Counted from the stretch's first letter, positions 5,585 through 54,321 are shown. The stretch is DNA of 64,000 bases from Antedon mediterranea (GCF_964355755.1 NC_092677.1:9694601-9758600); one strand, 5' to 3'. Program-made: numbers and translations. The notes: a model not told the origin generated them from the sequence alone.

Positions 5585-11332
<5,748 letters not shown>

Positions 11333-12942: not shown

Positions 12943-13101
12943 AAGCTCTGTCTACACTATCAAACTAGTTTGACAAAAAGAATGTGATGTGCCCAAGTAT
13001 GGTAGTGATATACCAAAATATGGTAGTGATATGACATCGTGTCCATATATGGGCACATCACATTTTTTGTCACATAAAGTCTGATAGTGTAGACAGAGCT
13101 T
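12943..13101 (+). mobile_element. MITE family 1, copy 2
   Basis: Both terminal repeats are present (AAGCTCTGTCTACACTATC and inverse) with TA next to each end. The interior carries two tandem ATGGTAGTGATAT-type motifs and the CATATATGGGCACATCA segment. Confidence 0.85.
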
Positions 13102-13794: not shown

Positions 13795-15206
13795 TCAGGT
13801 GTTGTACACTTTATTATCATGATTCAAAATGCATAGAGCGTACGCGGAAGATGTCGTCACCACGGCATCTGGATGATCACCAGGTTGTCGTGGATAGTCT
13901 GCTGTAATTTCCTCTTTTATGGATGTGCTGTCGTCCGTATTTATTGATTCTAATGCCATACTTAAAGGCCGACTGAGAGGTGAAGCAGCGGACGTTGGTG
14001 TTAGCAAGGTACTAGTGGTATGAGAAGGAGACAACAGTGGCTCGTTCTCCTTCAGACTATCTGGAGATGTATCTGGAGAACGTTGTATTTCAGAGTCTAT
14101 ACCACGCCTTACTTGTAGTTCAATATCTCTTTCTGGCTGTGACATCGTTTTATTTGCTGACCCATTCTTATAACTAGGTGCACAACCATTTATTTCTGCT
14201 TGTACAATAAATTTATGTTTTTCTAAATTTGTTTCTTTTGCATAAGTTTTTATTTTATCTGCTTCCGTTATTCCTGCAGCAGGTATTACAATGAATAAAT
14301 TATCCAGTTCTTTTTTTGTGCATTCCTCATTATTGTTCAAATGAGAAGACAATGTTTTTGTAGCATCAGTGTTTGTATGTGGCATTCTCTTTGAATCGGT
14401 AACTGCTTGGTCGGTTTCTCGGTCGTACCGAACAGATGGCATATTGTCAGGATTAACGTCCGTTTCTGAAACTCCTTGTAATGTCTCATCCGGGACACCG
14501 ATTGTGTGGTCCACTTGCTCCAACCATTCTTGAACGGTCTTTTGGTAATCCGGTCTTCCATATGGTATCCCATCGACTGGTTTTGGGTATTGGCGCCGAT
14601 ACGATGATTTAGCTTCTGTTTCGCTACACTTAGACATCGGATTGACAGTTCTTCTGTACCGTCTGCAACACAAGGCAGTATTTGTGGCGGAACACGTGCC
14701 ATGGTGATCACATTGATCTGGGCAGAGCAACTTAATGGCAACGGACAGAGCGTAACTAAATATTGCCGCAAAAACGGTAATGAGGATAGTAGAAGCTGCC
14801 GGTGGAATATCATAAAAGAAGTGTTGGCTAGAAGTGTCATCATCAGATGTCTTGACCGTCGCTGGTGGTGAGGTTGTAACCACAGTAGTTACCTGTACAC
14901 TAACGCTAATGATGGTTGGTGCTGTAAAGAAATATAAACTGTTAATACTTTGACATCAAATAGATCCTTTGTTAAAACGACCTACTAATATTAGGTATAG
15001 TCCCGTGTTGAATTATTTATTATTATTTATTATATTTTTTTAATTAACAGTATCCTTCTTTCGTACATTAATGCAAGACACGGTCTTTCTTTCTTTCACC
15101 TACCTGCCCTAACTGTCCGGATCTGTAATAATAACATCGATAGGACAAAGCACAGTGTCCGTACAGTTAACTGATGTTTTAAGGATGGCACGGCGTTGTC
15201 TTGCAT
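13795..15206 (-). CDS. Unrecognised single-pass membrane protein, 409 aa, two coding exons
   Basis: Exon 1 runs 15206-15104 (donor GTAGGT) and exon 2 runs 14921-13795 (acceptor TTTACAG, stop TGA). I start at 15206 because this ATG joins in phase and gives a signal peptide: polar N-terminus, core LCFVLSMLLLQI, likely cleavage after TVRA (about residue 34). A short Ser/Thr-rich ectodomain follows (residues 35-75), then one membrane segment (about 76-98, STILITVFAAIFSYALSVAI), a Cys-rich juxtamembrane stretch (CPDQCDHHGTC...LCCRRYRR) and a polar tail of about 290 residues with no domain I know. The topology would be type I. An acceptor-like TTTTTTAG just above 15283 suggests a spliced 5' UTR. 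Candidate AATAAA on the minus strand at 13528-13523. No function is assigned. Confidence 0.7.
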
Positions 15207-18352: not shown

Positions 18353-21300
18353 CTAATGACAGTTCTGGCAATTTGGCCGACAAAGACGGCCATTTTCTCT
18401 ACAATGACATCCTCCTGATTTGTCTCCCCTGCCCTAAAAATAAAAATATAACATACAATTATCAATGCTGTTTGGAAGTTTTATATTTTTATTGATTTTT
18501 ATATACAGTACTTGTAATCTACACACAATTCAATTTTTATTGCAAAGAGTGCGAATTAAAAGCTATATAATAGAAGTAGAAGTTATTGTTGGTTAGTAAT
18601 TAGTGAACAATCTGTATGTTTTGGTAAAGAGAAAACAAATGTACTAAAGAGTGCACATGTCTTTTGTACAACTGGTTAAATATCAACCTGATAGGCTTGG
18701 CTCATTGGTAGTAAGAAAACCTGCATTGTCCCAACATTTTTCAAGAACATACATATGGTGTGCTACTTGGCCACTGACATATTAACTTAGCTATAATGAA
18801 TGCATAGTGTCCACTCACATTTGGACCCCATCTTGGTCCCTTAGTGACCCAGCATATTTCAGTCTTGCACATGGTACATCTCACCCAATCACAACCGTCC
18901 TTCTTCTGTACAATGATCTTACATTTTGGACAGTGCATGGCGTCTCCATTTCTAACCATTTCCTAAAAATCAAAACATACAATTTTAAATTTGATTTTTT
19001 TCATCAGTAATTTGATCTGTCTTGTACAGGGAAGTAGTGGAGGATCCAAAATGTTATAAAGAAGGAGCCCAGGCCCAACAATGGTACAATGACGTGATTA
19101 ACTAAACCTAATGTTCTATCTTCTGTATTGCAGATTTCAATATTTAGTGGGTCCCTGGCCAGCTTTTTTCCCTCTTTGGATCTGCCTATAGGAGATGACA
19201 CCAAGGAGTTGAACAAAAAATGTTTGGTAACAATAGCTACACTTACTACTATACTTTAACAATCATTTAGGAAAATGTAAACTCACACTGTACAAATAGT
19301 AATCATTGTATTTTTGTCAAGCACCATCATAGAAGGGAAGGGGGGGGGGGGGAGGAGCGGTGGTACACAAGCAGATACCATACCATGGTGTTATTGTAGG
19401 ATATCATGGACAGGTTTACATATTTGATTTCACTGTGTGGTTTGAATAGACCTCCCTCTCACTGTTTGATTTGAGCAGCAACTTGCAACTTACATCCAGC
19501 ATCAATTGTGTTTGCTTAGCTGCTTTATCATTCATAGCATTTATTTGCAACGAATCCTGATATTCTTTACAGTTCATTCCTTCGTGAATGGCTTTACACG
19601 TCAAACAGTTGCTCTTTCCGCAGATCGGGCAAGGGAAGAAGTTGACGTCGTCTTCGTATATGCACCAGCCATGACAGTCCACGGTCTTACAATGGAAACT
19701 GTTGCCTGCTTGAGTCTCGGCAGTTGCGAGGCAACGCTGCAGGTGTTTTTGATATTGCTCATTGTCAACAAGCTGAAAAAAGTAAGTAATTCTGTATCAT
19801 TCTAAGATCACACAGAATAATAATACACATGTCTTATATAAGTCAAAGATGCTCTTCAGGTGGATGCCATCCTCAAATCAGTAGTAGTAATTAATACAAT
19901 TGTTTGTTTTTTTTATTAATGTATACGTTTACTTGTTATGGCCCAGAGATCCCGAAATAAAAGATTAAATAAATAAATATATATCTGTTTCATTTGTATT
20001 TTTAATATTTCCACTTACTGCTCTGATTTCGCGGTCTTGGATTAAAGCTTCGCAAGAAAATTCATTGTCCTGAAATGGACACTTGATTTCAGGTTCTTCA
20101 CAGACAGAAATATGTCCTGTTAGACAGTCTCTAAAAATGTAATCAAATTAAACAATGAATAAAATAAATAAATTAATAGTTTGCCAGTCATTTCATTCAC
20201 TACTGTATATACATTTATTTATCACCCCTAATTTAGGAAATCTAAGTGGTCCTCCAACGCTGGAGGCCTCTGCCATTCTTAGCCATAGCCTCAAGGGCCT
20301 CATAAGCTCTGGGGCCCTGTGTTTAACCATGGAGTAATAATTATTACTCAATGATTTAACCATTGAGCGCTCATAACCATTATGCCACTGGTTGTTAATG
20401 ATAACTATAAGTGAATTCATTAATTATCCTTCTTGAAATTGTCAACCCTTTTCATAGAACAACTATTAATACAATATAGAGAGTACTCAACACATATAAA
20501 ATCTAGTCTTTGTGAGTGGAGTGGTTTTTCATGAGAAATGATTCCGAAATCCAACCGACTTTGAACCCAGGACATTGGGATCAAAACCAATCATATTAAC
20601 CACAAAACTTTTAACTTCTGTAATCTTACTTGCAAAACGAGTGTAGGCATTCCCGCAGAGTGATGCCTTCTCCAGCGTCAAAGTCATCGTAACATATCAA
20701 GCACGTAAAAGCTTCGTTATTTGGTATTACGTCCAACTGGTCGTATTCTTGCAGACGCTCAAAATTTAAGACAGCTGCCTGTCGATCGGCTTCCTTTATC
20801 TATTTTTCAAAATATTTTACATCAATATAAATTATTTTTTAAATCAAATTTCTGTCCCTTCAATCTCAAAATATACAGCAGACAAGATGATTTAATTTTA
20901 CATTAAAAAAACAGGCAAAAAAAAAATACACTATGTAAACTACACAATTTCATTTGCTTTTAAAGTTATTTTTTATTTTTGCTGTTTTGTTTTTGTCTAA
21001 TAAACTGCTTCATACAACAAACGCATAATCATGCACCGTATTACAATAATGTGGTATTTATATTATTATCTAATTTTACAACTACACTTTCAATGATTTT
21101 TTTTTTCTTAATGGAATGTTAATTCTCCCAAATTTGATAAAATATCAACAACTTAATCAAGTATCATTTATTATCATTTTAATATTAATATTTAATATTA
21201 ATATTTAATATTAATTTTACAGGAATAGAAGAAATTCTAACCCATGGGCAGATCCACCTTAAATTTCGCAAAATCGTAATGCAAAAGACAGGACATCAAA

Positions 21301-24300
21301 TTAAGCCCAGCCCTTCATTTGACTATTTTTAGGCCCTGGATCCACCACTGTAACCCACCTAGTTATATAGAAAGTATATACAGTATTATATAGGGCATAG
21401 AAAAAGACCGAGATGCATGCTACAGGTTGGACATTAAAAGCCGGGTACAAATTTGTCATTCTAAGCATGTTACATTACTATTACTGCACTGTATAACAAA
21501 CTCTCAAACAAAAAGTTTAAAGAACGTTTTATTTATAATAATATTAACCGATACATAACTTTACAATAATGTTATTTATACAACATACACTAAATGATCT
21601 GGCAAAAAAAGTACCGCTTGTTGTAAACCTAATTTTAGATTAATGATGACACAAAATAAATAAAAACTGCAGCCCCATAAAGCTGTAACACCTTATCGAC
21701 TCATTTACGAAATATATACATGCGCAATTTGTAATTTCTCTAACTTTGCTGTAATATAGTTTTGTTTCACTTTTGTGTTACTTTTTTAAAACTTGTTGTC
21801 AATATTTTTATTTAAAAGTTATTTTCTTCCTCTTGGAACGATATAAGTGGTTGAGGTTCAAACACCAGCCCGTCTCCTCCTCCCACTAGTAACCCAGACC
21901 CTTGCAGATCATCCTAAAAATAAAAAAATAATTTAGTTCTAATTTTGAAATTTGTATTTTATTTAGTTTTGATATTAGAGGATAAAGGGTGTAGGAGGAG
22001 GACGGACTGAGCATTTAAACCAACTAGAAGAGAAGAAACACCTAAATTTGAGCTTACTCTTTATTACCAGAAAGTTACTTCAATAGTTCTCAGCAATTTG
22101 ATAAATAGCTTTAGCAATTCATCGAAGTTTGACACAAAGCGCGCAGTAAGCTGAATAGTGATACTTTGTTAGCCGGTTTGAGATCCTCTACTAAAGAATG
22201 ATCTTACAATTTTGACCATAAAGATATTTTAATTTTTTAGGCACTTACCTGTTTTATAACATCTTCATGTTGTTTTTCTTCTTCTATTAGCCGTTTCTCT
22301 ACCGCATCCAACTCGTACGAACCAATCGGCGGTAGCACATAGTTATCCGGTCTCGGGTTTGTACACATGTGACAGCTTGGTCTACGAGGAGCATTTACCA
22401 TCGTACAGACTTCACAGTGCCAGCCGACCTGACAAGAGAAAGTTACATTACTAGAGATGTGTCAATGTATGTAATATTGTTAATGTAAGTACAAGTAGAA
22501 AGAGTGCCCTCGATAAATTCCATTTTGTCAGACACTATAGGCTGGATATACTGTACAGTGTACTCCACAGTCAGTAATGGCGATATTCCAAGAACGATAG
22601 TTAGATCATGCGTATATGGAGGTAATGATGCAGGTATATATACTATCATTTTGAATAAGAGAGAGGATGGCCATTGAAATAATGAGATAGATTTGAAAGA
22701 CCTTCCAAATAGTACTTACATCCAATGCAGATTTCTTCCCTAAAGCAGAGGGCAAGACTGGCTCTTTATTTTGCATAACATCTCTGACAACTTTCTGAAC
22801 ATTTTCAAAGGGAACATGTTGTCTGCGTGGTTGAAAACCAGGCCTGGGAGCAGGCTTAGGCCGAACACTAGCCAAACTAGAAGCAACTTGTATTGAATCA
22901 TCTATCAAGTTTTCGGCTACTTCTGTGTAAGAAAAATATAGTAATTTTATAATATTCTACACAATAGTTGTTGAGACATCCATAAGAAAAAGTTGAGAGC
23001 AATTTATTCATTTTCCAATTCTTATTCATTAAATACTAACCAGGATTTTGAATAGCGTTTCTTGGTGCTTCTTCTTTTTGTGTTAAATAAAGAAAGACCA
23101 TGTATCCTGATTGGTCAATGCTTAACGCTTGTAACGTTTCATCATCCCTCACAATTCGATGGCCCACAATCCATCTTTGAACTTCTGGTGGAAAATTGTA
23201 ATCTGTATGCATCTGTAAAAAAAATAGTACAGTAGTTAGAGAGAGATTGTCAATGGAAGATATTGCTGTTATCTATGTATGCACCACATAGGTGCTTGAT
23301 ACCCGTAAACTGTTGATTTACAGTAGCTGCACTTGGGTAGTTGAGTGGTTTGGTGGTTTGCCTCCAATCCCAAGGTCCAGTGTCCAATACTAGGGTTTTA
23401 ACTTTATGGCTACAAACACAAATGTGTTTATTCATCACATTATATAACCAACTGTTTCTACTCCACTCACTAAACATCAAATTAGACTTTATTTTATAAA
23501 CATTATACAGTTTATCCATGTTGTAACTGGTATAATGTGTATGAAATAAAAAATGGGACAGAGGTAAAGTAATTAAACTAGTTGATTACTTTACTACTAT
23601 GGGTTGATATATCTATTTCTTTATACAGCCTATTGACTACTAAGTGACTGTTTGTTTTGTTTGTTTCTACCATTCACCCTCAGTTGATGAAATTCAAATT
23701 AAGATTCTCCACCGACCCACTGCATAAATAGTGTCCGTCAACAATGAGCAACAGGGGCTAAGTAGTAAGATGGAACAGGGATAATACTCTTCTGAAAGAT
23801 GCTTGGGTTCTTTATTAATTTATAGTGCATACGAGCCAGACATGTACTCTGAAGTTTTAAGTTCACTTGAACAACCAGAACCATTAAACCATACTGTTTA
23901 TATTTTTTATTTTACTGTGCTTTTTGTACAATGTGTTTTTGTTTATGTTGTCAATTTGATATAGGCCTATATATTATTTCTGCAACTCTTTGTGCTGCTA
24001 TAGTCATAATATTTGTTTTAATTTATTTATGTTGAAATATATATACTTGCCTTTTCTTTTAATGACTTAATTGATATTGATGGCTTAACCTTCAAAGTTA
24101 TTTTTATTGATGATTTAAAACGATCTTCAACTGAAATCCTAAGACTGAAAAAAGAAGCAATTGGAAGTGGATGTTTAACATTAATATCAATAAAGTAAAT
24201 TGTATTATGGCCTGCCTGTATGTTTTTTTTTTCCTTTTTCCATGTTGGTGAAGTGCTTTTCTTTATTCACGATCTGCACATTTTGATCAGGATGTGATTT

Positions 24301-27300
24301 TGTTTAAGAGTATTAAAGAGTTCTGTTTGATTCAGAATTCAAACTAAAGCTCTGTCTACACTATCAAAAAAAGTGTTATGTGCCCAAATGTAGAATTGAT
24401 ATGCCCAAATATGGTAGTGATATGACATCAGCACATCCATATAGGCACTTCACATTTTGTTGTCACATACAATTTGATAGTGTAGTCAGAGCCTATTGTA
24501 CTTGTTTTATGAGGAACAACTTTTCTTCACAAATATCCAATTTATGGGAATTTAACATTGAAAAAGGTTAGTAAACTAACTTGATCCTATTATCAGTCTT
24601 TGTGATGTTTGTTGTATTTGCAGATTGGCTAACAGCTAAACAAGCCTTTTCTTGTGCTAGTCTCTTTGCAATTTCTCCAGCCTTTTGTTGATCACCTTCA
24701 TTAATGCTGACCATCAATTCCTTTGCAAGAGAGTCTGTAACATTTAAAGAAAGAAATTCATTAAAAAAAAATTAGGGTTGATAAAGCATTGATCCTTAAA
24801 CAAGGAACCAGTTATTAAAATCTACTGTAGGGACCACTGACTTATTTACTGTTACCATACAAAGGCAATGAAAAGTCATAATACAAATTGGTCAGTTTAA
24901 CATATCTATTCTGGATTATTTACCCACAGCATTGTCATTTTTTTTCAGTAATTTGCCTTTTGATTTATAAAAATATTAATGTTTTAAATTAAAATATTAA
25001 GAATTTTCTTTATTTTGTGGCGAAAAAAAATCTCTAAACTATTCAACTAGAGTAGGAAATTAAAGTTACACAGTATAATATTTTTTCATACCTAATAGTT
25101 CGCCTTTCCCCGATGACGAGTCTCCACCACTGATGTGCCGCTGTGCAGCCATCTCGACGTGACTCCTCTCAAAAGCTATAAATAAGGTTGTAGTAATCAG
25201 ATTTAATGTACAATCATTAAATTACAGTACATTAGAGTAGAATTCCTATTAAGGGGACACCTTTGGGACCTATCAAACTTTCCTTTTAAAAGGTGGGTGT
25301 CCCCTGTATAGGGTCGTAGTATTTGACCGAGAATAATCCCATGCCCAAGTATAATCCCACCCCTAATCACTATGTCTCTATGTCCTACAAACTTTAGGTT
25401 TATTGGGTAAATCTATGCAATCCACCCAAATATAATCCCACCCAAAGTTCATATCCAGGCCCCCTGGGACTATATTCGGTCATGTACAGTTTGTGCTCTA
25501 CAGTAATGAACATGAACAGAATCATACAATGTACACAGTAGGCCAATTTTAGTATTAACAATTACGGTATAAATCAGGATAATACTGTATTAACATAATT
25601 GATACAATACTATGATATGAACTGCAACTACCTCTTAAATAAAATTGGACAAACCTGAATTTAAAATACTAAAAACTTTTGGACACCAGGGTTGAATTTA
25701 CTTAACAAAACTCAACATAACTGTGAATCCTTCACTGTCTTTCAACCAAATGCTATGATTAGAATCGATATACAAATTTACATTGTTGGAAATTCCCTAT
25801 TTTAATTCTGGACTTTCCCTTCAAAGTAACTGAATATGTTATTAGCATAACAATGAGAATGCCCCACCAGTATTCGATTGCTAAGAATCAATCAATTTCT
25901 TTTGTGCTGTTATGATATGAAATATATTTCCTTCCTGGTATGTCTGACATAATTTTACTATAAAAATGGGTTGAATTTGTCAAATGACTTGATACCACAC
26001 ATGACATTTTGCAATTTGGTGACTAAGTTTTATTCCAGTCTCATGACAGGAACTAAATTGGGCAGGATATACGTAGGGAATCACCTACTCTTCAAAAATG
26101 CTATTGTGTATTTAACTATTTAAAAGTCCTTTTGAATAAATTGTAACATTCATGCAGATATAACTTATTTCAAGTTAGCCCAAGAGAGATTCAGAATTTA
26201 GAAAACAAGGGGAAGATATGTTGTACAGTAACTCCCTAACCCTAAACTCACTTCAACCTGTAATGTGATATACAATGAGGGTTCATAGATCATATGTAAC
26301 TAAAAGTTAAAGATGCATTGTCCCGCTGAAAAAATAGCTTAAAAAATAATTTGTTGAATATGTCATTTCAATATCAAATAATAGTTATCCACTAAGACTA
26401 AAATTGGATATAAACAAAATTATTTACCTGCAAATATAGTCAAATTGTCTACCAGCCAATGGGTTTTTGGTTGAATTTAACCATATATTTTTTCATTTTA
26501 TAAGTGAAAACATTTTTTGTTAAAGTGATTAAATTTATTAAAACTACAAAATAAGCTATTAAAAATCTGATTTAATTAATCTTCATTTTTCATATTTTTG
26601 GGGGACAATACATCTTGCTATGCTCTACCTGATTTCCTCTGTTCATGCGTCGCATTGCCAAGCAATGTTCCAAAGTTTGAGGCGTCCGTAACTTTCTCAT
26701 ATTCCATTTGATATTGCTTCTTATCAGGTAATATAAATTCATGAACGGAGCCACTAACCACCTTGAAACTTAGGCTAGACATGGGTGAGTAAAGAAGTAC
26801 CTGAAATGCAATATTCATTTTATTCTATCTGAATTATTTCAAAATTTACGATATTTTTTTCCAAGATGAAAAACAATGATTTAAATCACCACGAATACCA
26901 GTCTATGGTTATTGAAAATAAAATAAATAAAATCTTTGTAAATAAAAGATTTACAATTTAGCATACAAGGATCACGTTATTGCATTATTATGCTAGACAC
27001 GCTGCCACACAGGTGTAGTGGCAGGTGACCGAGTAGGCGCGGGCATGATTTGAAACTGTCATATCTTATTGGCTGAAGTGTTGCAGGCATGTCTCTGCTC
27101 CCTCTCTATTTTTTAATGCTTTAATACTAATTGGAGTAAACACAATTACTATTATTATAACAATTACATTTTTTAAAACTGTACTAACACTTTTGTCATG
27201 TACTGCTTTCAGTACAAAGCCTTTTGATACATCTAGAAACTGTAATACACATGGTGCAATTCGGATCCACCCTTTTGCATCATGATTAAGATAAAGCACA

Positions 27301-27350
27301 CCAGGAGCAGATCCGAGAACACTATATTCTTCATCAAGCATTGTAAAAGT
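18353..27350 (-). CDS. RBCK1: SHARPIN/HOIL-1 pro-orthologue: PH-like, UBL, NZF and RBR E3 ligase (LUBAC subunit), 672 aa
   Basis: Coding exons on the minus strand: 27341-27168 (exon from 27350), 26800-26629, 25175-25092, 24734-24581, 24144-24051, 23212-23041, 22922-22720, 22428-22249, 20799-20630, 20130-20019, 19772-19494, 18962-18819, 18433-18353 (TAG). All phases agree: 673 codons. Residues 1-115 match the SHARPIN PH-like fold ([20 protein letters not shown]). About 142-190 is the LUBAC-tethering helix region, 196-275 the UBL ([13 protein letters not shown]), 352-380 the NZF (WHCEVC...CHMC), 444-470 RING1 ([15 protein letters not shown]), 530-575 the IBR, 607-672 RING2. Cys622 in [10 protein letters not shown] corresponds to HOIL-1 catalytic Cys460. 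In vertebrates HOIL-1 and SHARPIN bind HOIP through their UBLs to form the linear-ubiquitin ligase; HOIL-1 makes ester-linked ubiquitin. The 24051 junction uses a GC donor. The ATG at 27341 is the first in its exon; further 5' UTR exons are likely. Confidence 0.9.
19030..19195. mobile_element. Degraded MITE with GTGGAGGATCC-type ends (probable)
   Basis: One end reads AGTGGAGGATCCAAAATG and the other GGATCTGCCTATAG in inverse sense, resembling the CAGTGGCGGATCCAG family (intact copy 54917-55034). It lies in the intron between RING2 exon 18962-18819 and exon 19772-19494. Confidence 0.35.
20225..20400 (-). mobile_element. Possible tRNA-derived SINE fragment
   Basis: The minus strand reads GTGGCATAATGGTTATGAGC and then ATGGTTAAATC, loosely like A and B boxes, followed by a body without similarity to the other SINEs here. 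It lies in the intron between exons 20799-20630 and 20130-20019. An open frame across it is not a gene. Confidence 0.3.
20515..20612 (-). mobile_element. Possible tRNA-like SINE head
   Basis: The minus strand has TTTGTGGTTAATATGATTGG (A-box-like) and, about 30 bp on, TGGGTTCAAAGTC (B-box-like). The body is short or lost. It sits 18 bp past the RING1-exon donor. Confidence 0.35.
21181..21216. repeat. AATATT-rich short tandem repeat
   Basis: A 12-bp palindromic unit (AATATTAATATT) is repeated about three times. Confidence 0.7.
21243..21350 (-). mobile_element. CAGTGG-type MITE copy
   Basis: On the minus strand it begins CAGTGGTGGATCCAGGGCC and ends GGTGGATCTGCCC, the same ends as 54917-55034, with a shared interior (CTTAATTTGATG, TTGCATTACGATTT). 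It lies downstream of the alternative last exon, within the long intron of the full-length transcript. Confidence 0.6.
21812..21913 (-). CDS. Alternative last coding exon giving a SHARPIN-like PH-UBL-NZF isoform (444 aa)
   Basis: It lies between the NZF exon (22428-22249) and the RING1 exon (20799-20630). A strong acceptor (TTATTTTTAG) precedes 21913, and the reading frame continues in phase 0 from the NZF exon for 33 codons ([20 protein letters not shown] then an acidic end) to TAA at 21814-21812. AATAAA overlaps the stop (minus strand 21812-21807). I saw no usable donor in it. With the eight upstream exons it would encode 444 aa: PH-like, tethering region, UBL and NZF, without RBR. That is the domain order of SHARPIN. 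Whether it is used in cells cannot be told from sequence; it could also be a poison exon. Confidence 0.6.
   Translation of the reverse strand, partial: DDLQGSGLLVGGGDGLVFEPQPLISFQEEENNF
23319..23551 (+). mobile_element. tRNA-derived SINE, family 1, copy b
   Basis: Same body and tail as 7772-7981 (AAACATCAAATTAGACTTTA, GTGTATGAAATAAA), with a 28-bp insertion in the middle and eroded box B. It lies in the intron between UBL exons 24144-24051 and 23212-23041. Confidence 0.65.
24347..24494 (+). mobile_element. MITE family 1, copy 3
   Basis: Left end AAGCTCTGTCTACACTATC, right end GATAGTGTAGTCAGAGCC, with the standard core. It lies in the intron between exons 24734-24581 and 24144-24051. Confidence 0.8.
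26307..26615. mobile_element. TTAA-MITE family 2, copy b, abutting a splice donor
   Basis: Left end TTAAAGATGCATTGTCCCGC, right end GGGGGACAATACATCT, with the standard 300-bp body. On the minus strand the donor of the second PH exon (exon end 26629) lies only 13 bases from the element, so the intron starts almost inside it. Confidence 0.75.
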
Positions 27351-29008
27351 CTGAGAGAATAAAAATGAAATTATGATTAGCAATGCATATTGAATATAAA
27401 AAGATATAGTCGAAGTCGTGTTCAAATGGAAAAGTTAAAATATGAGTTTGTAGAAAAGTAATAATTTAAAAAAATTAGGAACATACTGTATAAATGTAAA
27501 TATTTGTCAACTTTAACTCGACTTCACCATACAAATAAATTGACGTTTAAACAATTTATGTACTTGAAGTTTACTGTTCTACCAAGGTATAATATCAGAA
27601 ATGCATTACAATTATCGGCCAAAGAATATGAGACTCTGAACTGAATATAAATTAATGGACGGGTTCGTTTATATTATAAACATCCCGTGTTGTAGCTACA
27701 TATTTACCCACCAGAGCAGAATGTCTGATCTAACTAATACACTGATCTACTACTGATCTCCACTGGCACTGTATATCTAGGCCTGCTTATACTCGTATAT
27801 AATGTATAGGTAAAACAGTAGATAAAATAGGAAGGAAGGAAAAACCATTTGGTAGCTAGTCCAACCAACCAACTGACAGAAACAAGTGGCTACAGAACAG
27901 TACAGATAATAGAATAGTTAGTTAGAATTAGAGTAGAAGGAAGACACACACATGATGAAAATACAAAAAGTAAATTACAATTATTAGACGAGTCTGCTAC
28001 ACATAAATTGGACTAGCCTACATATAAAGTCTGTGTAGTCGAATATGTTATCAGAATCAAGGGAGGTTACCTAAAAAAAGTAGTAGTGTCATCAAACGTA
28101 AACAAAAAATAGAGTATGGATTTTCCCCATTTTTAATTTATGTACTTTGTGTGTGGCACGTGACCTGATGACTCTTCGTAATTATTTATAGAGGGGGTTG
28201 TTTACATAGACTTACCTTATTCTCAAATAGTATTTTAATCAAACTTCCCATAATTTTATCAATTTGAATAATAAAAAATATATAATGAATTACATAATTA
28301 ACTTTCTTTTAGTTAAAATTATTATACTTTATGTTACTTTATATATATAATTATAAAATACTTATATATGGCAATAGATTTATGTGAAATAATCGTTTAA
28401 AAATGGACTTCAAAACTAAGGTAAATGTCAACATTTCAGCTGTAATTTTCCAAAACGTAAAAGCTTTTTTTTCTTGGGAAAGTTTAGAAAATAGTCGTGT
28501 TTATGCATAAGTTATCAACGGATTTCCGTAGTTTTAATTAGATCAACACAAACCGAAAAATCTTATGTAAGGTTTGAGTCGTTTTACTTGTATTTTCAAG
28601 AAAGTCTATACATTTTTGTTGTATATTTTTACCAGGCTCGTAGGCCAGTCAACAAGGTCGTTTCCTGGTATTTGTCCCTCGGTTCTCCCGCACACAAAGA
28701 GGCTTTTGATTCGATGGCGCTTGTTATGCTCTGGTTGTCTCAACAACAAAAGGACAGCTTAGCTTCAAGTTTATTTAAACAAAACAATTCTGAAATGGTG
28801 TATAGTTGTTTTTCAACAATATCGAACATTGTCATTAGTAATTTTTGTTAATATTAAATTCCACACAATTTTTCTGTAAAGAATTTGAACGAAATTTAAT
28901 CGAAAATAATCTGAATTTACTGTATGTGTATAAAAACATAATAAATTCACGGTGAGTTAGTGATCCAACAACTAAATACAGATAAAAAGAAGAGAGAGAA
29001 GAATCAAG
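27351..29008. promoter_or_regulatory. Divergent promoter region between the LUBAC-subunit gene (-) and MAF1 (+)
   Basis: The two coding starts (27341 minus, 29009 plus) are 1.67 kb apart and point away from each other, so both promoters and any 5' UTR exons must lie here. I saw no strong TATA or GC-rich core. An ATG-less open frame at 28588-28851 (containing ARRPVNKVVSWYLSLGSPAH) follows an acceptor-like TTTTTACCAG; it could be 5' UTR of MAF1 or chance. Confidence 0.55.
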
Positions 29009-32000
29009 ATGAAGCTTTTAGACAATTCAAAACTTGAAGCAATCAGTGAAGCATTGACAGTGGAGACTGGTGATTGTAAAATTTCTGGAAAGTATGTACA
29101 TTTCTGTATTCTATAAATTTCTTAATAATACAATAATCAATTATATATTTTTAACCTTAAAACTACAGTCAGTATATTGAGTAACCTAATTTGTAATTCC
29201 ATTTCCATCTATACTATTTTTCTTCCTTTGGCATTGTACACTGTTGCAGTGACAATACTGAATGCCTATCCATCATAATGTAAATTTTTAAAGCTAAATT
29301 TAAGTTTTTATTATAAAGAATTGTTATTAAATATTATAAATTTGATATAATTAGAAATATGAATTTCTTAATTGAAGTATTTTTAATTTTGCAGAGTGGA
29401 AAGCTATTCCTGTAAGATGGCCGGTAACGATAAGCGTTTATACAAGATGATAAGCAGTGAGAACGGTCAGTCACCAAACGATTTGCAGGCGTTGTCACCT
29501 CCTCAGTCAGGCTTTCATCTCGGCCCAGGTCAAATTTTAAGCACCAGCAGTAGCAGCGGAGGAGAGGAAACAGGCCCACTGTGTCACACCTGTAGTCGTA
29601 GAATGATATACTACCTCATAGCAACGCTAAATGCTTCCTTTCATCCCGACTATGATTTCAGGTGTGTTGCTGTGCCTACTGGTATAATTTTTTGTGTTAA
29701 AATTGGAATGTCGTTTGTATAACTTTAATAGTTTGCATTGTGCTAAACACTAAATTCTGGAAATGTATAAAATAAATAAATTCTTGTATCACCTTTAGCA
29801 AAGGTGATACAAGAATGTTGGTGATACAACTTCAATTATCACTTTCTGATCGGTTTAACCATAGAGATATTATATAGCACTATAATATCTCTATGGTTTA
29901 ATCATAGAGATATTATATAGCACTATATCTCTATGGTTTAATCATAGAGATATTATATAGCACTATATCTCTATGGTTTAATCATAGAGATATTATATAG
30001 CACTATAATATCTCTATGGTTTAATCATAGATATATTATATAGCACTATAATATCTCTATGGTTTAATCATAGAGATATTATATAGCACTATATCTCTAT
30101 GGTTTAATCATAGAGATATTATATAGCACTATATCTCTATGGTTTAATCATAGAGATATTATATAGCACTATAATATCTCTATGGTTTAATCATAGAGAT
30201 ATTATATAGCACTATAATATCTCTATGGTTTAATTTTGAAACGATTGTTTTCATAGTATAAAATAGAAAATGAAAAATTTGATTTTTTTTATCTAGTGAT
30301 GCGAAAAGCAGTGAATTCAGCAAAGAGCCAAGCTCAAACTGGATAATGAATGCAGTTGACAGTAATCTATATTCTGTCCTTGGTGATATGTATGCTGGGC
30401 TTAAAACCAAGCTATGGTCTGCCATTAATGATGAGATTGTTCTCAATGAATGCGAGATATACAGGTAATTATTGTTTATTAAGGTTAAAGTGGTTAACAA
30501 GAAAATAAAAAAAAAATTTAAGAGGAAACCGCAGAACATTTTCTTTGCAATATATTTTCACCTACAGTATCACCCACCCTACAGAAGGATTGAAAAGCCT
30601 CTATATAATAACCAAACAGTACTGTAAAACCATGGACCTATAAATTTATAGGTACATGGTAAAACAATCTTCCTACCCACACCCATACTCTTCACAATAC
30701 ATAATATTCAAATTAACAACTTTATTAATTATGAATGCCATAGACATTTAAAATCTATTGTATGATGTTCACACTTGTCAATTTTAGATAAAGAAATAAT
30801 TGTAAAGTACAACTCAACTCAATCATTTTTAAGTTTTCTATATTATAGTGTTTTGATTCTGGGTTGTCATGAATTATATTTAACTAATTTTGACTTTTTT
30901 TCTTGCATGTTTAGTTACAACACAGATCTTGAATCGGATCCATTTGGTGAAGAGGGTGTTCTCTGGTCGTTTAATTACTTCTTCTACAACAAGAAGCTGA
31001 AGCGGATTTTATTTGTTACATGTAGAGCCACCAGGTATCCATTTTAATACCCATTGTGTTTTGTGTCCATTGTTGTGTGTAAACTTCCATTTGTGTTGCT
31101 TAACTTTGATATTTAATAGATGCTTTGTTGTTTTGGTCCTGTATTTTAAAACAACAATGACCATAGTACATTTATAGGATAGTCGATTTAATTTTAACTA
31201 ACTAAATTATTTATTTTTAATTATTTACTGCTAGTCAAAGTTCTTACTGCAACTAGCCGTTGTCCCTATATTTATTTCCTTTGTTTTATATGCTTGTACA
31301 TGTTAGCTTAATGAAAGAATGTAATAGAATTTTAAAATTTATTTTTGAGTCTGAATAAAAAATAAAATATGCCTACTAAAACTTCAATATAATGCAGAAA
31401 TATTATTGTATTGTACACAAATTCATTAATTCAATAATAATAATAATAATGGCCGTTTATATGCATAAGATATATAATATATGTATAGTTAAACAACTTG
31501 GGACAACGGTGTTATTGTAAATAGTGCAAATATAATCTTAGCATAGTATATTTTAGTAATGACTTGATGGTAAATTGTCTGTACTGTACATGATACTTCT
31601 CCATACGACTGGCACCTTGGCGAGGTGGAGAAGCTTGTGAATCTCAATGATCTGTAGAGCTATGCCGGCGGTAGCCTAGCAAGCTACTGGTAGGGTCACC
31701 CATGCCGGACAGGTCGCACAGTTAGAGGTCAGACAAAGTCCAGTCTTAAGAGGTCTTCACAAAATGATCTGTAGAGCTGTGTTGGGACTACTGTAGCTTT
31801 AAGTAAGGTACTGGGGTCACCCATGTGAGATTGGTTTTTTTTCTAAAGCTCTGTCTACACTATCAAACTAGACAAAAAAGTGTGATGTGCCTAAATATGG
31901 TATTGATATTGCCATACTGTACATGGTAGTGATACATCATGTTCATATGTATGGGCACATAACATTTTTCACATCTAATTTTATAGTGTAGACAAGGCTT

Positions 32001-32610
32001 AAATAAAATTGCCTTATATTGTGTAAAACTGATTCATTATTATATGTTTGTATCTTGTCTTTGTAGCAAATCTGCCATTGCGAGTGGTGATTCTGGGATT
32101 GGATTTGACCTGCAAACAGACATAGATTATGATGATATTTACATGGAGGAAACCGAGGATTATGATGGTTACAATCTGAGACAAAGGTAACTTATTATTT
32201 ATATATTATTATTTATTATATATTAATACAGTATTTGCTTAAATTTAGTTATTGTTCAAGATGATAATATATAATTAATTGAAATAATAATGATATAATT
32301 ATATTCCCAAGTGTTGTCTGTGTCTAACAAGTAACATTAATATATTTTTTTCTACACAAAATTTAAATGAAATCTGTATTAATTTTATATTATTTGTTTT
32401 CTTACATTCAAAAGACTTTCTTTCTATTTGTTGGTTACTAAATGTTTGCTCGAATTAAAGTTCTGGTTAAAAATATAAAATAAACAAACAAAATTCAACA
32501 TACTAGATATTCAAGGTATGTTGAATTTTGTGCTGTAAGGTTGTTTAAAAAACATTTATGAATGAAAAGAAATGTTTTATTTTTCTGTTAGATCGACGCC
32601 TGTCAATTAG
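29009..32610 (+). CDS. MAF1: MAF1, repressor of RNA polymerase III transcription, 258 aa
   Basis: Six coding exons: 29009-29091, 29395-29661, 30297-30464, 30915-31034, 32067-32186, 32592-32610 (TAG), giving 259 codons with agreeing phases. The start [12 protein letters not shown] is the conserved MAF1 N-terminus. Conserved blocks follow: [53 protein letters not shown] and [18 protein letters not shown]1 is the TOR-responsive protein that binds Pol III and blocks its recruitment; the Ser/Pro-rich stretch between the A and B boxes (about residues 52-75) is where kinases act in other animals. Length matches human (256). All five introns interrupt codons after the second base. It is head-to-head with the SHARPIN/HOIL-1 gene. 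Candidate AATAAA at 33808-33813. Confidence 0.96.
29780..29816. repeat. Perfect 17-bp inverted repeat with 3-bp loop
   Basis: ATTCTTGTATCACCTTT, a 3-base spacer, then its exact complement. It lies in MAF1 intron 2, just before the hairpin array at 29853. Confidence 0.95.
29853..30234. repeat. Tandem array of hairpin-forming 39-43-bp units
   Basis: About nine head-to-tail units in MAF1 intron 2 (29662-30296). Each is itself a near-perfect palindrome: CCATAGAGATATTATA, spacer TAGCAC, then TATAATATCTCTATGG. Some units lack four bases of one arm. Because units are palindromic, neighbouring arms can also pair. Open frames running into it are spurious. Confidence 0.9.
31600..31830. mobile_element. 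Interspersed repeat fragment, class unknown
   Basis: It contains GGCGAGGTGGAGAAGC, GCCGGCGGTAGCCTAGCAAG, and two copies of GGGTCACCCATG with GATCTGTAGAGCT repeated. This higher-GC text differs from the surrounding intron (MAF1 intron 5) and resembles LINE-type 5' regions seen in other marine genomes; I could not confirm the class. Confidence 0.4.
31846..32000 (+). mobile_element. MITE family 1, copy 4
   Basis: Left end AAGCTCTGTCTACACTATC, right end GTGTAGACAAGGCTT. It lies in MAF1 intron 5, 66 bases before the exon at 32067. Confidence 0.8.
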
Positions 32611-34053
32611 TATGGATTACAGCAAACAGCAGTGAGCTACCAATAAGGACACTTCACTCAAATTGTCAGAAATTAGATGGAATGAAGAAATTACGTTTAA
32701 AATAGGTTTTAAAACCTACCTGTATTTATTTTTGTAAATCAGCTATATGTATTATACAGTAGATTTTAATAGCATTTAAGCAAGAATATGGTTCAAAACT
32801 GAAAAGAACTGTTTAAACAAAAATAGTGATAGTGATTGTTTCTGATTCTGAACTTGAAACTGGCCTAAAGAAAGGCCTATTTTGACCAAACAATGAGTGT
32901 GATGTGCCCAAATATGGTAGTGATATGGTCAAATATGGTAGTGATATGGTCAAATATGGTAGTGATCTGACATCATCATTTCCATATATGAGCACATCAT
33001 ATTTTTTTGTCCCATAAAGTTTGATAACGTAGACAGAGCTTGACTAACAATTGCAGTGTAGATATTATATATCACCATGCAATATATTGCTTATCAGGCT
33101 TTTAAACTAAGTATTTATTAACTGTTGTGTTAACTATTGTGAATGCTATATACATTTGTAATATTTCATTACAATCTTAAAAGCTTCAGCATTTTACACT
33201 ACAATACACTTGTACATACTGCATCCAGTTGTAAGTTTGTATTTATTGGCATTGGGTTGCCCACACATTGCTTATAAGTTATAATGGCCTAGTTGGCCAA
33301 AATTTGTTTACGGTTGTTAGATATTCAGAAACTTATGTACATATTGTAAATAAGACAGTATGAAATTGTGACAGGTATGTTAGAATAAGTTTATATCTTG
33401 GTGTTGTATGCCATTCTGTTTTGCGCCAGAATTATTTTAAAAAGGTTGATTTTTGCTTCCGAAGTCTATGAATGTATGGCTACTAGTTGTGAATGTACAA
33501 AACTGTATGTATTACTGCCTTTTTAGTGCAATAATGCATGGTTCTGCTTTACAAGTAATAGCACTGCAATAGTTCTAATGTTTGGGGGAGGTTTCGACTT
33601 CACCCCACTCGTGCACATTTTATTATTGTTGTGCTATAGTACATTACCGTAGGGTACAACATTGATGTGACAGTCAAATTAAAGTAAATGAGTTTTTTTA
33701 CAAGACATTACTATACTAACAAGTTTTAAAAGTTGACTAGTTTTATAGTTTTACTTGCATTTTATTTAGATATAGCACATGCTAATAAATTTGAATTTTT
33801 TATGCTGAATAAAATGTTTCTCATCACCAAAAATAAGGTAGTTATTGGTTTATTGAGGTAAACGCAATTAATTGTACACAATATATGCTAATAAAGCACA
33901 GAAAAGGTCTAATGAAATTGTTGTGTGCTATACTAGCTGGTTGCAAAACAAATTAATATACTGCCCTCTATCATCATTATGTATTTTTTACGCTCGAGAT
34001 TCATCGTGTCTGGCACACTTCGCTAAAAAATTCACATAATTTACTTGAAAAAG
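32611..34053. other. MAF1 3' UTR and MAF1-TMEM70 spacer
   Basis: The stretch after the MAF1 stop has candidate AATAAA at 33808-33813, which would make a 1.2-kb 3' UTR that includes MITE family 1 copy 5. The TMEM70 start follows at 34054. No other gene is visible. Confidence 0.5.
32881..33041 (+). mobile_element. MITE family 1, copy 5, left end lost, internal motif tripled
   Basis: The right terminus is intact (TTTGATAACGTAGACAGAGCTT). The internal unit ATGGTAGTGATATGGTCAAAT is present three times in tandem. It probably falls in the MAF1 3' UTR. Confidence 0.75.
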
Positions 34054-35244
34054 ATGATAAATATTTGTCAGTCATCCTTTCGTAGGTCAATTCCAATTAT
34101 GTCTGCCGCCTTGCTGCGTTTTGGCTGTATAAAAAAAGTAAGTACTGCACTATTATATGTTGTATTGTGCCTAGGTAGGGCCCTAGCTAGGCTAGCCCTC
34201 GTCGCTCAGGCTGTTCATGATACAGTCAGTGTGTCAAAATGAGTCCGACACCGCAGGAGATTGCCAATACATACACATTGATTGATATGCCTAGGGCCTA
34301 GATCATATGGATAATACTACTGTCAGTGTCATTGAGTGGGTTCTGTTTGTTTTGTGAGGCTTTCTTTCCTTTCAAATGTAAACGTTAAAATTGATTAAAT
34401 ATTAAAATAATATATTATAGGCCTAAATAATGCCAGAGCAGAGGGATGTCATAATTAATATGATAATAAAACCCTAGTAGGCCTACACTACCTGCCTCTC
34501 TTTATCTCTACTATCTAATTGATTGATAATTGATCTGTTATTACTAATAAGAACGTCATATTAATAATAATAAACTGTCATGTTTGTTTTTTACAGAATA
34601 TATCTATTGCTTCAGTAAGAAAGTTTAATACAATTCACCGAAAAATCGTTAATCAACCATTCGTAGTGATACAAAATGGTCAACAGATCATCCGTCCAAT
34701 CAGCACAAGTTACCGTTGCTCATGCATACCAATGTCTGAACGTGAACTTAAGCAAGGAGCCCAAATCTATGATGGCCAAATTACAAAACGAGTTAGATTT
34801 GTCAAGTTTTTCTCGATTTCAACAAGCCTTTGCAGCTTAGCAATTTTTCCAACGCTGTTACTAAATGACGACACTGGAGGATTTGGAATTCTCGGTTTAG
34901 TCGCAGGATCAGTGGCCTCTGTTATGTTCTTCACGCCTCTTTTCTTGCACTACTTTACAAAAAGATATGTAACGAGAATGTATTTGAACTACGATACCGA
35001 TATTTACACGGCGTACACGATCAATTTTATTTTACAGGACGTTAAGCATGTATTTCACCAGAAGGACATTCTCGTACCTAGTGTGGCAAATATATTCACA
35101 ACGTTTAAAGCAAACGGTAGATCATTTATGGTGGATGTTGAAAGTTTTAGTAATCCAAATGACTATGCTCATTTAATGGGGTATGATAAAATGCCAATTA
35201 CTATTCAAGACATCTCAGATGAAATCAATGATAAAGAAAAATAA
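34054..35244 (+). CDS. TMEM70: TMEM70 homologue, mitochondrial ATP-synthase assembly factor, 243 aa
   Basis: Two exons: 34054-34137 (donor AAA|GTAAGT) and 34597-35244 (acceptor TTTTACAG, stop TAA), joined in phase 0, 244 codons. The N-terminus (MINICQSSFRRSIPIMSAAL) is basic and hydroxylated, as expected of a mitochondrial targeting sequence. The TMEM70 core shows two membrane segments (about 97-117 and 123-146) joined by a short Asn/Asp/Gly turn, then the family signature LLHYFTKRYVTRMYL-like text, DTDIYTAYT, VFHQKDILVP, IFTTFKANGR and a C-terminal LMGYDKMP. The first of these reads FLHYFTKRYVTRMYL here. TMEM70 sits in the inner membrane and helps incorporate subunit c into complex V. AATAAA lies at 35354-35359. 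Confidence 0.92.
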
Positions 35245-36364: not shown

Positions 36365-39300
36365 ATGAACAACGAAAAAGCAAAGCATCACAAAAACAAT
36401 AGCTTGAATGACAATGAAGAAGAAACCACAAAACTCATTCATGGGAGGCGGTTTTCCTTGCAAATTCCTTTTGCGGAACTTTGTGTACTAGAATTTAGCT
36501 CCGGCATTAAAAAGGAAACAAAAGAATGGGTATTGAACAAGCTTGCTCTACTGCCGAGCCAAAATGGTGCTGGGGTAAACGTTCGAGTAACACAGACCGA
36601 AAAGAAGAAAGACATTATAGTCTACGTAGGCGTCACAAAAGAACGAATGCTTGAAGGAGCTGAGAAAGCGTGCTTAAAGAAAAGATGTAAAGATGGCACT
36701 CTTGCGGACTTCACAATCAAACACAAGGATCAATTCGACCAAGAAGGTAAGAATTGTGTCGGGTCGTTCCAATAACATAATCGCTCGAGCATAAGACTAA
36801 CCCATTGACCACTAAATTTTGTCATGATAAGGGACTGAACTGCTTTGATTATGTGTGAAAAAAAAGGTATGCCTTATCTGCTATATTGGGAGATGCCACA
36901 AACTTTGTGCGCAGAATCTCCTTCAATGCCTTCTTAATAACACAAGCTGTCTTATCGGTTGACAATTTCAACAAAAGATTATTAAAGCATAAAAACAACG
37001 CCGTGGTTAGGATTCCGGCACCGGAACTCAACTGCCCAGCGTTAGGGATTCCGACACGCTATTGCGCATGCCCAGAGCGAGGTAATCGGCGACTCTATAC
37101 TTACCAACAGCGATGGATTATTTCATAGCTGCGCCACACGGCGAACTAGCCTAGATGCCTTCTAATATGGGATCCACTATTCTAGGCTAGGGCTACCAGT
37201 TAGACTACGTGACCAGTGGGCCTATAGTATTTATTTTGTAATTAAAAAGTGGTTGCTTCATTCATATATAAAATTCATATCATTATGAATTATATAATTA
37301 CATGACTAGTTTTATGATTTTTCATAACGCATTATACTGTACATATACAACATGCAATCACAAGTTGATTTGTTGACGGCAGCCACCGCGTGGATGTGAA
37401 AAAACTGTTCGGGAAGTCAGTGTCGCAACGCTAAAAACAGCATTACGATTCTTATTCATTAGATAGATACTGATACTTATTAATATCATTATAATTATTT
37501 TAACGCGTGGCGTAGTCATATTTTAATTATTAATTCATGTATGGCATAGGCCAAGTTTCATCCATCGCTCTCTCGCTCGCGCAACGACTATCTAGGCTAC
37601 AGTAAATCCCTATAACACTCCGACTCTCCGTGGTGTGGCACTATTATTAGTGCAAGCTATAATTCACTTCCCAGAGCTCTGGGCATGCGCAATAGCGTGT
37701 CGGATTCCTTAACGGTGGGCAGTTGAGTTCCGGTGCCGGAATCCTAACCACAGCGTAAAAACAAATTGCTAAAATTTAATGTATAAAACATTTTTTTTAT
37801 TAATAAAATAGTATTCTCTTTAAAAAACAGCAAGTGGTAATTCAAATATGATAATAAAATATTTTATGTTTAATTTATTATAATAAGTTTGTTTTCTCAT
37901 TGGCAGAAGCTGAATTTCTAAGTACGGCAGAACAGCAGAGAATAATAAGTTACATCATCTGCAACCTGGTGTCACATGATGATGAGGTCATACCAGGAAC
38001 GAAAGAGAAAGTGTACAGGTCTGAGAAAACCAGTGAGTTCAGGAACACCCTAAAGCTCTGTATAAAACTAGCAAAAAATGTTATGTTCCTAAATATGGTC
38101 GTGATATGCCAAAATATGAAGTGATATGCCCAAATATGGTAGTGATATGCCCAAATGTGGTAGTGATATGACATCACCTCCATATATCATGGGCACATCA
38201 CATTTTGTTGTCACATAAAGTTTGATAGTGTAGACAAGGCTTTAGAGTTTCTTTCTACAACTGAATTGTTGTACATATATAGTTGACTTCTAGGATTTAA
38301 ATTAGGTAAAAATTCCCAACTTGAAAATAATGAAAATGAAATATTTGAATATCTTGAAAAACATGGTACTATTTTTGCTTATAATGCATCAACCATATAG
38401 TGTGAGATTTACAACCTTTGGCACATTTGTCGGCCATTTTCCAGAGAGAAAATTTTCTTTTTCACCTCATCTCAATGTTTCGACCTTTCACAAAAAGTGG
38501 AAGTATGAAATGTCTGAGTAAAAACTTTATTATCGGGATAGTTAGGAGGTCTGATGTGATTGTGATTTTTATAGTGTACATTTGGGTAAACCACTAATTC
38601 AGATGAATTAATCCAAGGTTACTCAGTGAAGAGCTTAAAGAAATTTCTTACAGGAAGTGACCTGCTGACCTTTTAGATTCTTTATTTGATATCAAACTTT
38701 GATATTGTGTTTTTTGTTGCATTTTTCAGTTATCAAGTGTATGAGTTTAGGAATTGTAAGCCGACTGTACCCATTACATCAGCTGGGTGAACTAGATGAA
38801 CTCAGTCAAGCATGGTATCAAAGTTTAAAGAATATCGTCAAACAACCACATGGTAAATTGCGTCAATTGCGCCCTCTACATTACATTTTTTTTTAGCAAA
38901 GATCATACAAAAATCTGTGACACGCTATGTACAATTATTAATATTGATTGATAGATAATCTGTTCTTAGTTTTTTTCAATTTAAAAAAATTGTTATCACA
39001 GATATGATTCGTCGCTACTTTGGAGAGACAGTTGCAATATACTTCAAGTTCCTTGGCTTCTACACGAGAATGCTCGTATTTCCTGCCGTCTTCGGCATCA
39101 TTTACTACTTCTTTGGAGGTCAAAGACGGGCCAGCCACAGTTACGGACTCTTTGCCATATTCAACCTCGTCTGGACCACATGTTTTCTAGAGATATGGAA
39201 ACGTAAAAGTGCAGAAACAGCATTTCGTTGGGGCACGTATGGGATGGTTAAGTTTGAGGAAGCCCGTCCTTCATACACCGGTGAGGTCTGGATCAACCCG

Positions 39301-53640: not shown

Positions 53641-54321
53641 ATATGGTGACAATGTGGTTCCGCATGGTTGTGACGACGTGGTACCGAATGGTTGTGACGA
53701 TGTGGTACTGCATGGTTGTGACGATGGGGCATCGCATAGTTTTGACGATGTGGTACCGCATGGTTGTGACGATGTGGTACCGCATGGTTGTGACGACGTG
53801 ACGCTGCATAGTTGTAACGATCTGGTACCGTATAGTTGTGACGATCTGGTACCGAATGGTTGTACCAATATCATACCACATGGTTGTAACAATATAGTAT
53901 CACATGGTTGTGGCAATGTGGTTCCGCATGGTTGTGACGATTTGGTACCGCATAGTGGTGACGATGTGACACCGCATGATTGTGACGATGTGGTACCGTA
54001 TAGTTGTGACGATGTGATACCGAATGGTTGTACCAATGTCGTACCACATGGTTGTACCAATATCGTACCACATGGTGGTGACGATGTGACACCGCATGAT
54101 GGTGACGATGTGGTACCGCATAGTGGTAACGATGTGGTACCGACGACATGGTACTGCATGGTGGTGACGATGTGACACCGCATGATGGTGACGATGTGGT
54201 ACAATATAGTTGTGACGATGTGATACCGAATGGTTGTACCAATGTCGTATCACATGGTTGTACCAATATCGTACCACATGGTTGCGACGATGTGGCACCG
54301 CAAGGTTGTGACGATGTGGCT
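53641..54321 (+). repeat. 24-bp minisatellite (GGTACCGCATGGTTGTGACGATGT type), about 28 units
   Basis: The unit is a multiple of three, so several frames on both strands stay open for 130-209 codons. Units vary at fixed positions (CGCATGG, CGAATGG, CGTATAG; GTTGTGACGAT, GTTGTACCAAT, GTGGTGACGAT), and longer higher-order blocks are repeated. There is no start context, splice site or composition suggesting a true protein. Confidence 0.9.

Follow-up and report, generated by a model that had tools for sequence, protein, structure and literature searches.

A HOIL-1 gene with a SHARPIN-like N-terminal segment, head-to-head with MAF1 in Antedon mediterranea, as the probable unduplicated form of two LUBAC subunits

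Among the subunits of the linear-ubiquitin ligase LUBAC, SHARPIN and HOIL-1 are encoded by two genes in vertebrates. RBCK2, which we take to lack the RBR, is a HOIL-1-gene transcript without the catalytic part, like the short form predicted here, but differs from it in having no PH domain. It arises by alternative splicing of mammalian RBCK1 (cited in PMC6044281). In mouse LUBAC, UBA1 binds the UBL of SHARPIN and UBA2 that of HOIL-1, and the two LUBAC-tethering motifs (LTMs) co-fold through contact residues that include L15 and V19 of HOIL-1 and L176 and I180 of SHARPIN (PMC6044281). The function of the SHARPIN PH domain has been called enigmatic (PMC9884707).

The closest invertebrate case is that of Aplysia californica, where a single gene, LOC101863809, appears under both HOIL1 and SHARPIN because, of its four isoforms, one is devoid of the RBR; this isoform, XP_035825204.1, is called SHARPIN-like (PMC9334734). 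The Aplysia gene resembles the one described here in serving for both subunits and in having one RBR-less isoform, but it is known from domain annotation only, and the text does not report a PH domain for it and describes neither the anatomy of the locus nor MAF1 synteny (PMC9334734). Since this one-gene case is already in print, the novelty of our finding is lowered; in the papers searched we found neither the complete PH-LTM-UBL-NZF-RBR architecture nor the MAF1 link described.

Gene structure and the HOIL-1 part

The window analyzed is a stretch of 64,000 nucleotides from contig C8 (9694601-9758600) of A. mediterranea, and the genome searched is that of the animal (354 Mb in 18 contigs). 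Thirteen exons on the minus strand of the window (27350-18353) join without a stop into a reading frame of 672 amino acids that starts at ATG 27341 and closes with the stop at 18353, with GT-AG boundaries and a single GC-AG intron, after exon 5 (E5). E1 ends in phase 0, E2 ends in phase 1, and E3 starts in phase 1 at 25175. The original prediction, which had read a SHARPIN-like PH segment and the whole of HOIL-1 as one gene, was thus right in its coordinates, splice phases and product length.

E1, 27168..27350, minus strand: first coding exon, with ATG 27341-27339; N-terminal half of the PH-like segment
E2, 26629..26800, minus strand: C-terminal half of the PH-like segment (Sharpin_PH 12.3-12.7 bits, co-linear)
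E3, 25092..25175, minus strand: linker; has ATG 25152 (residue M124), a possible alternative HOIL-1-like start
E4, 24581..24734, minus strand: LTM, residues 146-180 (PF25393)
E5, 24051..24144, minus strand: first part of the UBL; GC donor
E6, 23041..23212, minus strand: remainder of the UBL (ubiquitin match 8.4e-8, residues 209-271)
E7, 22720..22922, minus strand: UBL-NZF linker
E8, 22249..22428, minus strand: NZF zinc finger; donor CAG/GTAAGT, the top score of the gene
E9, 20630..20799, minus strand: start of the RBR (RING1); weak acceptor
E10, 20019..20130, minus strand: second part of RING1
E11, 19494..19772, minus strand: IBR region
E12, 18819..18962, minus strand: RING2, with the catalytic Cys in KKDGCDW (position 618; C622)
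E13, 18353..18433, minus strand: HOIL-1 C-terminus ending in CQNCH, then the stop
28216..28251, minus strand: end of a candidate upstream exon; its donor, after 28216, is the best between E1 and MAF1

Judged from its sequence, the stretch from residue 144 to 672 is certainly HOIL-1, with LTM, UBL, NZF and an RBR carrying the catalytic Cys. The human HOIL-1 structure 8eaz matches residues 405-672 (E=1e-99) and 7yui (HOIL-1 NZF-RBR) matches residues 352-586 (E=2e-65), while residues 144-272 match the LTM-UBL of HOIL-1 with 3.3e-20 and that of SHARPIN with 2.5e-14. The RING2 catalytic cysteine is C622, and the HOIL-1-type ending, CQNCH, is present. The LTM model PF25393 scores 22.1 bits, under its cut-off of 27.5, and this is its sole match in the genome; L15/V19 of HOIL-1 and L176/I180 of SHARPIN, the LTM contact residues, align with L150/I154 here, and the conserved LTM glycine (SHARPIN G186) aligns with G157. 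In the comparison with HOIL-1, the NZF shows 50% identity. An NCBIfam search gave no match. Thus, LTM, UBL, NZF, RBR with its catalytic Cys and the characteristic C-terminus are common to this protein and HOIL-1/RBCK1; unlike vertebrate HOIL-1, the Antedon gene adds an N-terminal PH-like segment, adjoins MAF1 and has a candidate RBR-less last exon.

At the 5' end, E1 starts at an acceptor, and an upstream exon is therefore expected; the candidate at 28216..28251 would add an in-frame ATG (28251) upstream of ATG 27341. The acceptors of E1 and E2 lie in the 97th and 95th percentiles of AG sites in the window and the E1 donor in the 95th; the donor of E2 (65th) and the acceptor of E3 (72nd) are mediocre. 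Runs of 57-61 codons free of stops are found at 2.4-2.8% of the intronic positions in the window. E1 shows no coding bias by codon usage, a test that does not discriminate for E1, E2 or the alternative last exon considered below (E9alt) and fails even on certain exons.

The functional HOIL-1 transcript could instead start within E3, at ATG 25152, and encode a HOIL-1 of the vertebrate type, devoid of the PH-like segment, with E1 and E2 belonging to a different or minor transcript. E3 is indeed GC-rich (0.55) with locally raised CpG and a weak acceptor, and ATG 25152 is followed by G and stands just 20 residues ahead of the LTM, similar to human HOIL-1; nevertheless, E1 and E2 have good acceptors and continue in phase into E3, the codons ahead of ATG 25152 are open and in frame, no alternative 3' partner for the two exons is evident, and they lie between MAF1 and the LTM like the PH exons of SHARPIN. 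We thus regard a start in E3 as unlikely, and favor the transcript that includes E1 and E2. Mild rises in the CpG profile, at E3 and at 28.4-28.7 kb, are suggestive of promoters but not decisive.

We note that a 21-bp unit, with a consensus close to AAATATGGTAGTGATATGCCC, forms short tandem arrays at six scattered places in the window, one of them within an intron of this gene:

10904-10952, 12984-13032, 24371-24424, 32909-32966, 38091-38170, 43347-43481: arrays of the 21-bp unit

The N-terminal segment and the MAF1 neighborhood

When residues 1-127 were compared with 24,736 Pfam models, the sole match was Sharpin_PH, at 12.3 bits (library E=0.15), far under the cut-off of 27 bits. A hand-scrambled control drew an unrelated Pfam family at E=0.027, a better library E-value than that of the Sharpin_PH match, and the library-wide value therefore proves nothing alone. 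Taken as one model, Sharpin_PH, a family that had been named before any search, gives E values of about 4e-6 to 6e-6, and its alignment is co-linear within three residues (residues 55-114 on model positions 58-119 of 121). E2 alone holds the entire match (12.7 bits), and E1 alone has no match in Pfam; the grounds for assigning it to the PH are contiguity and position, sequence giving none. Local alignment with the SHARPIN PH sequence of PDB 4EMO gave Z values of 3.2-3.4, which 26-36 of 3000 shuffles equaled, and phmmer found no match to the PH segment in the PDB. The SHARPIN PH dimer-interface residue Val114 aligns with Thr103 here.

On sequence alone, PH identity would be no more than likely. 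The segment might also be an unrelated or disordered extension with no PH domain: AlphaFold models calculated without an alignment for residues 1-127 and 8-112 were unusable (pLDDT 42 and 35), and Foldseek, run with the first of these, returned nothing but fibronectin, immunoglobulin and cupin-like folds, all with E >= 0.1 and meaningless, so that neither gives support for the fold; to this are added the sub-threshold Sharpin_PH score and the unmatched E1. We consider this reading improbable in view of the co-linear alignment with the single model that was anticipated beforehand, the strand-rich pattern of the segment and the synteny with the SHARPIN locus. The likeness to the SHARPIN N-terminal domain claimed in the original prediction is borne out for E2, by a weak but co-linear match; E1 resembles nothing by sequence, and the PH fold is a putative one.

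Position provides the strongest new support for a link to SHARPIN. The neighboring gene is MAF1, with which the PH/HOIL-1 gene lies head-to-head, the coding starts being 1.67 kb apart:

MAF1, 29010..32190, plus strand: ATG 29010; PF09174 2.3e-20 on the second exon, and further exons near 29395, 30298, 30915 and 32066

We take human SHARPIN and MAF1 to be divergently oriented, and human RBCK1 to be located elsewhere, at 20p13. The variant rs34173062 is p.Ser17Phe in codon 17 of SHARPIN (PMC9884707) and is also classed as a MAF1 2-kb-upstream variant (PMC12173599), which places the first codons of human SHARPIN just upstream of MAF1; the human locus is written MAF1/SHARPIN, 8q24.3 (PMC7160128). 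Being head-to-head with MAF1 as in human, this HOIL-1 gene therefore occupies the SHARPIN locus, and its PH-like exons are at the MAF1 end, where those of SHARPIN lie. The PH-like segment, LTM, UBL and NZF follow one another in the same order as in SHARPIN; the differences are that the long form here carries on into a complete RBR, absent from SHARPIN, and that the PH similarity is weak.

Other features of the window were also recorded. Beyond MAF1 are a TMEM70 family gene (34594-35241, plus strand; PF06979 4.8e-30), whose human counterpart is presumably at 8q21, and anoctamin exons (38959-41785, plus strand; PF04547 2.3e-55). A MAF1 intron contains a 43-bp tandem repeat in nine copies (29852-30234), each with an inverted repeat, and a 24-bp minisatellite of about 20 copies at 53646-54319 can be read through in several frames on either strand. 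A 386-codon open frame at 13798-14955 (minus strand), with a likely transmembrane segment, has no Pfam match.

A candidate alternative last exon

Directly past the NZF exon, a second potential continuation of the gene was found:

E9alt, 21812..21913, minus strand: alternative last exon (proposed), joining E8 in phase 0

Its acceptor, at 21913, ranks 3rd among the 6503 AG sites of the window and was absent from the training set, as compared to rank 417 of 6503 for the acceptor of the first RBR exon, E9. E9alt offers 33 open codons followed by a stop, with AATAAA at 21812 and again at 21533, where a GT-rich stretch follows. The predicted product, PH-LTM-UBL-NZF plus a 33-residue tail, would be 444 amino acids long counted from ATG 27341. 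E9alt would thus likely give a SHARPIN-shaped isoform without the RBR; SHARPIN itself ends shortly past the NZF, as this isoform would.

It is doubtful, though quite conceivable, that E9alt is no exon and that the 672-residue protein is the sole product. About 10% of intronic positions give 33 open codons by chance, AATAAA is common in the AT-rich sequence of this region, and the E9alt peptide has no known relative. These points are to be set against an untrained acceptor of such high rank beside a weak RBR acceptor, the in-phase junction after the NZF, a GC content of 0.45 versus 0.33, and the similar isoform annotated in Aplysia. The view that the 672-residue product has everything holds for the full architecture, but with E9alt as a candidate this product is probably one of two.

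A transcript joining E1-E8 to E9-E13 would encode PH-LTM-UBL-NZF-RBR, a predicted HOIL-1 ligase with the N-terminal domain of SHARPIN, while a second one ending in E9alt would encode the SHARPIN-shaped PH-LTM-UBL-NZF form. With the candidate isoform, what was read as a gene with everything may be a single gene serving two subunits. The evidence tilts, slightly, towards a single MAF1-facing locus that would supply both LUBAC accessory subunits by choice of the last exon, a choice that vertebrates would have fixed as two genes, with SHARPIN descending from an RBR-less HOIL-1 isoform.

Relation to the vertebrate pair and assembly of LUBAC

In order to place the gene relative to the vertebrate duplication, we compared three sequences, the window protein, human HOIL-1 and human SHARPIN, which yield three-way distances and not a tree; the human LTM-UBL sequences used are identical to PDB entries in their UBL stretches and close to mouse entries in their LTMs. 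Over the LTM-UBL region, human HOIL-1 and SHARPIN are 50% identical, and identity of the window protein is 34% with HOIL-1 and 30% with SHARPIN. HMMER scores agree, with 103-106 bits between the paralogues and 76 (HOIL-1) and 57 (SHARPIN) from the window protein. The vertebrate paralogues are mutually closer than either is to the window protein, and the gene therefore branches before their duplication; for a gene orthologous only to HOIL-1, one would expect a greater closeness to HOIL-1 than SHARPIN shows. A lineage that evolves fast could give the appearance of such an outgroup position.

Genome searches found no second LTM or RBCK1-like locus, although a diverged gene could escape them. The Sharpin_PH profile gave no match over the whole genome, and is unable to count copies since it missed even the PH/HOIL-1 locus. 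The fused architecture and its pre-duplication reading, both part of the original prediction, are nonetheless supported by MAF1 synteny, by the mutual closeness of the vertebrate pair and by the single LTM gene found; for the interpretation, synteny and distances weigh more than the motifs first invoked.

We thus consider it probable that this gene represents the unduplicated SHARPIN/HOIL-1 form, with a predicted long PH-LTM-UBL-NZF-RBR product and probably a short one, and that this form would later have been split into two genes. In the vertebrate line, the gene would have been duplicated; the copy staying beside MAF1 would have dropped the RBR and become SHARPIN, and the other would have dropped the PH exons and become RBCK1/HOIL-1. 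That the fusion is instead derived, HOIL-1 having gained a PH-like segment in this lineage independently of the PH of vertebrate SHARPIN, is very unlikely: it would agree with the weak similarity of the segment, and one genome was examined, but the MAF1 neighbor, its orientation and the PH-LTM-UBL-NZF order would all need to arise twice, and the LTM-UBL distances put the gene outside the vertebrate pair.

The genome also encodes HOIP. Of two HOIP-like genes, at C2:18976000-18985990 and C8:27713200-27723190, the copy on C8 has the UBA modules: its exons (27.713-27.723 Mb) match B-box, the two halves of UBA_HOIP, UBA_RNF31, IBR_1 and LDD, the UBA_HOIP halves scoring 15.6 and 18.6 bits, each under the cut-off of 22.4. 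In the C2 copy, tblastn detected no UBA (E 0.01); this copy has its RING1 exon twice and the start of its IBR twice, and a reverse-transcriptase open frame lies upstream. With two HOIP UBA modules and one UBL gene, that gene would have to contribute two molecules. LUBAC would here consist of HOIP and two molecules from one gene, both of the long form or one of each form; LTM pairing, and perhaps PH self-association as well, would hold the complex together.

If the unduplicated reading is correct, it would explain the origin of SHARPIN and why the two LUBAC accessory subunits share an LTM-UBL-NZF core, as these subunits would once have been one gene, and possibly once two isoforms. The PH domain would then once have formed part of the HOIL-1 ligase polypeptide, and a one-gene LUBAC would lend itself, as a simple system, to dissecting the roles of the PH domain, of LTM pairing and of the HOIL-1 ligase.
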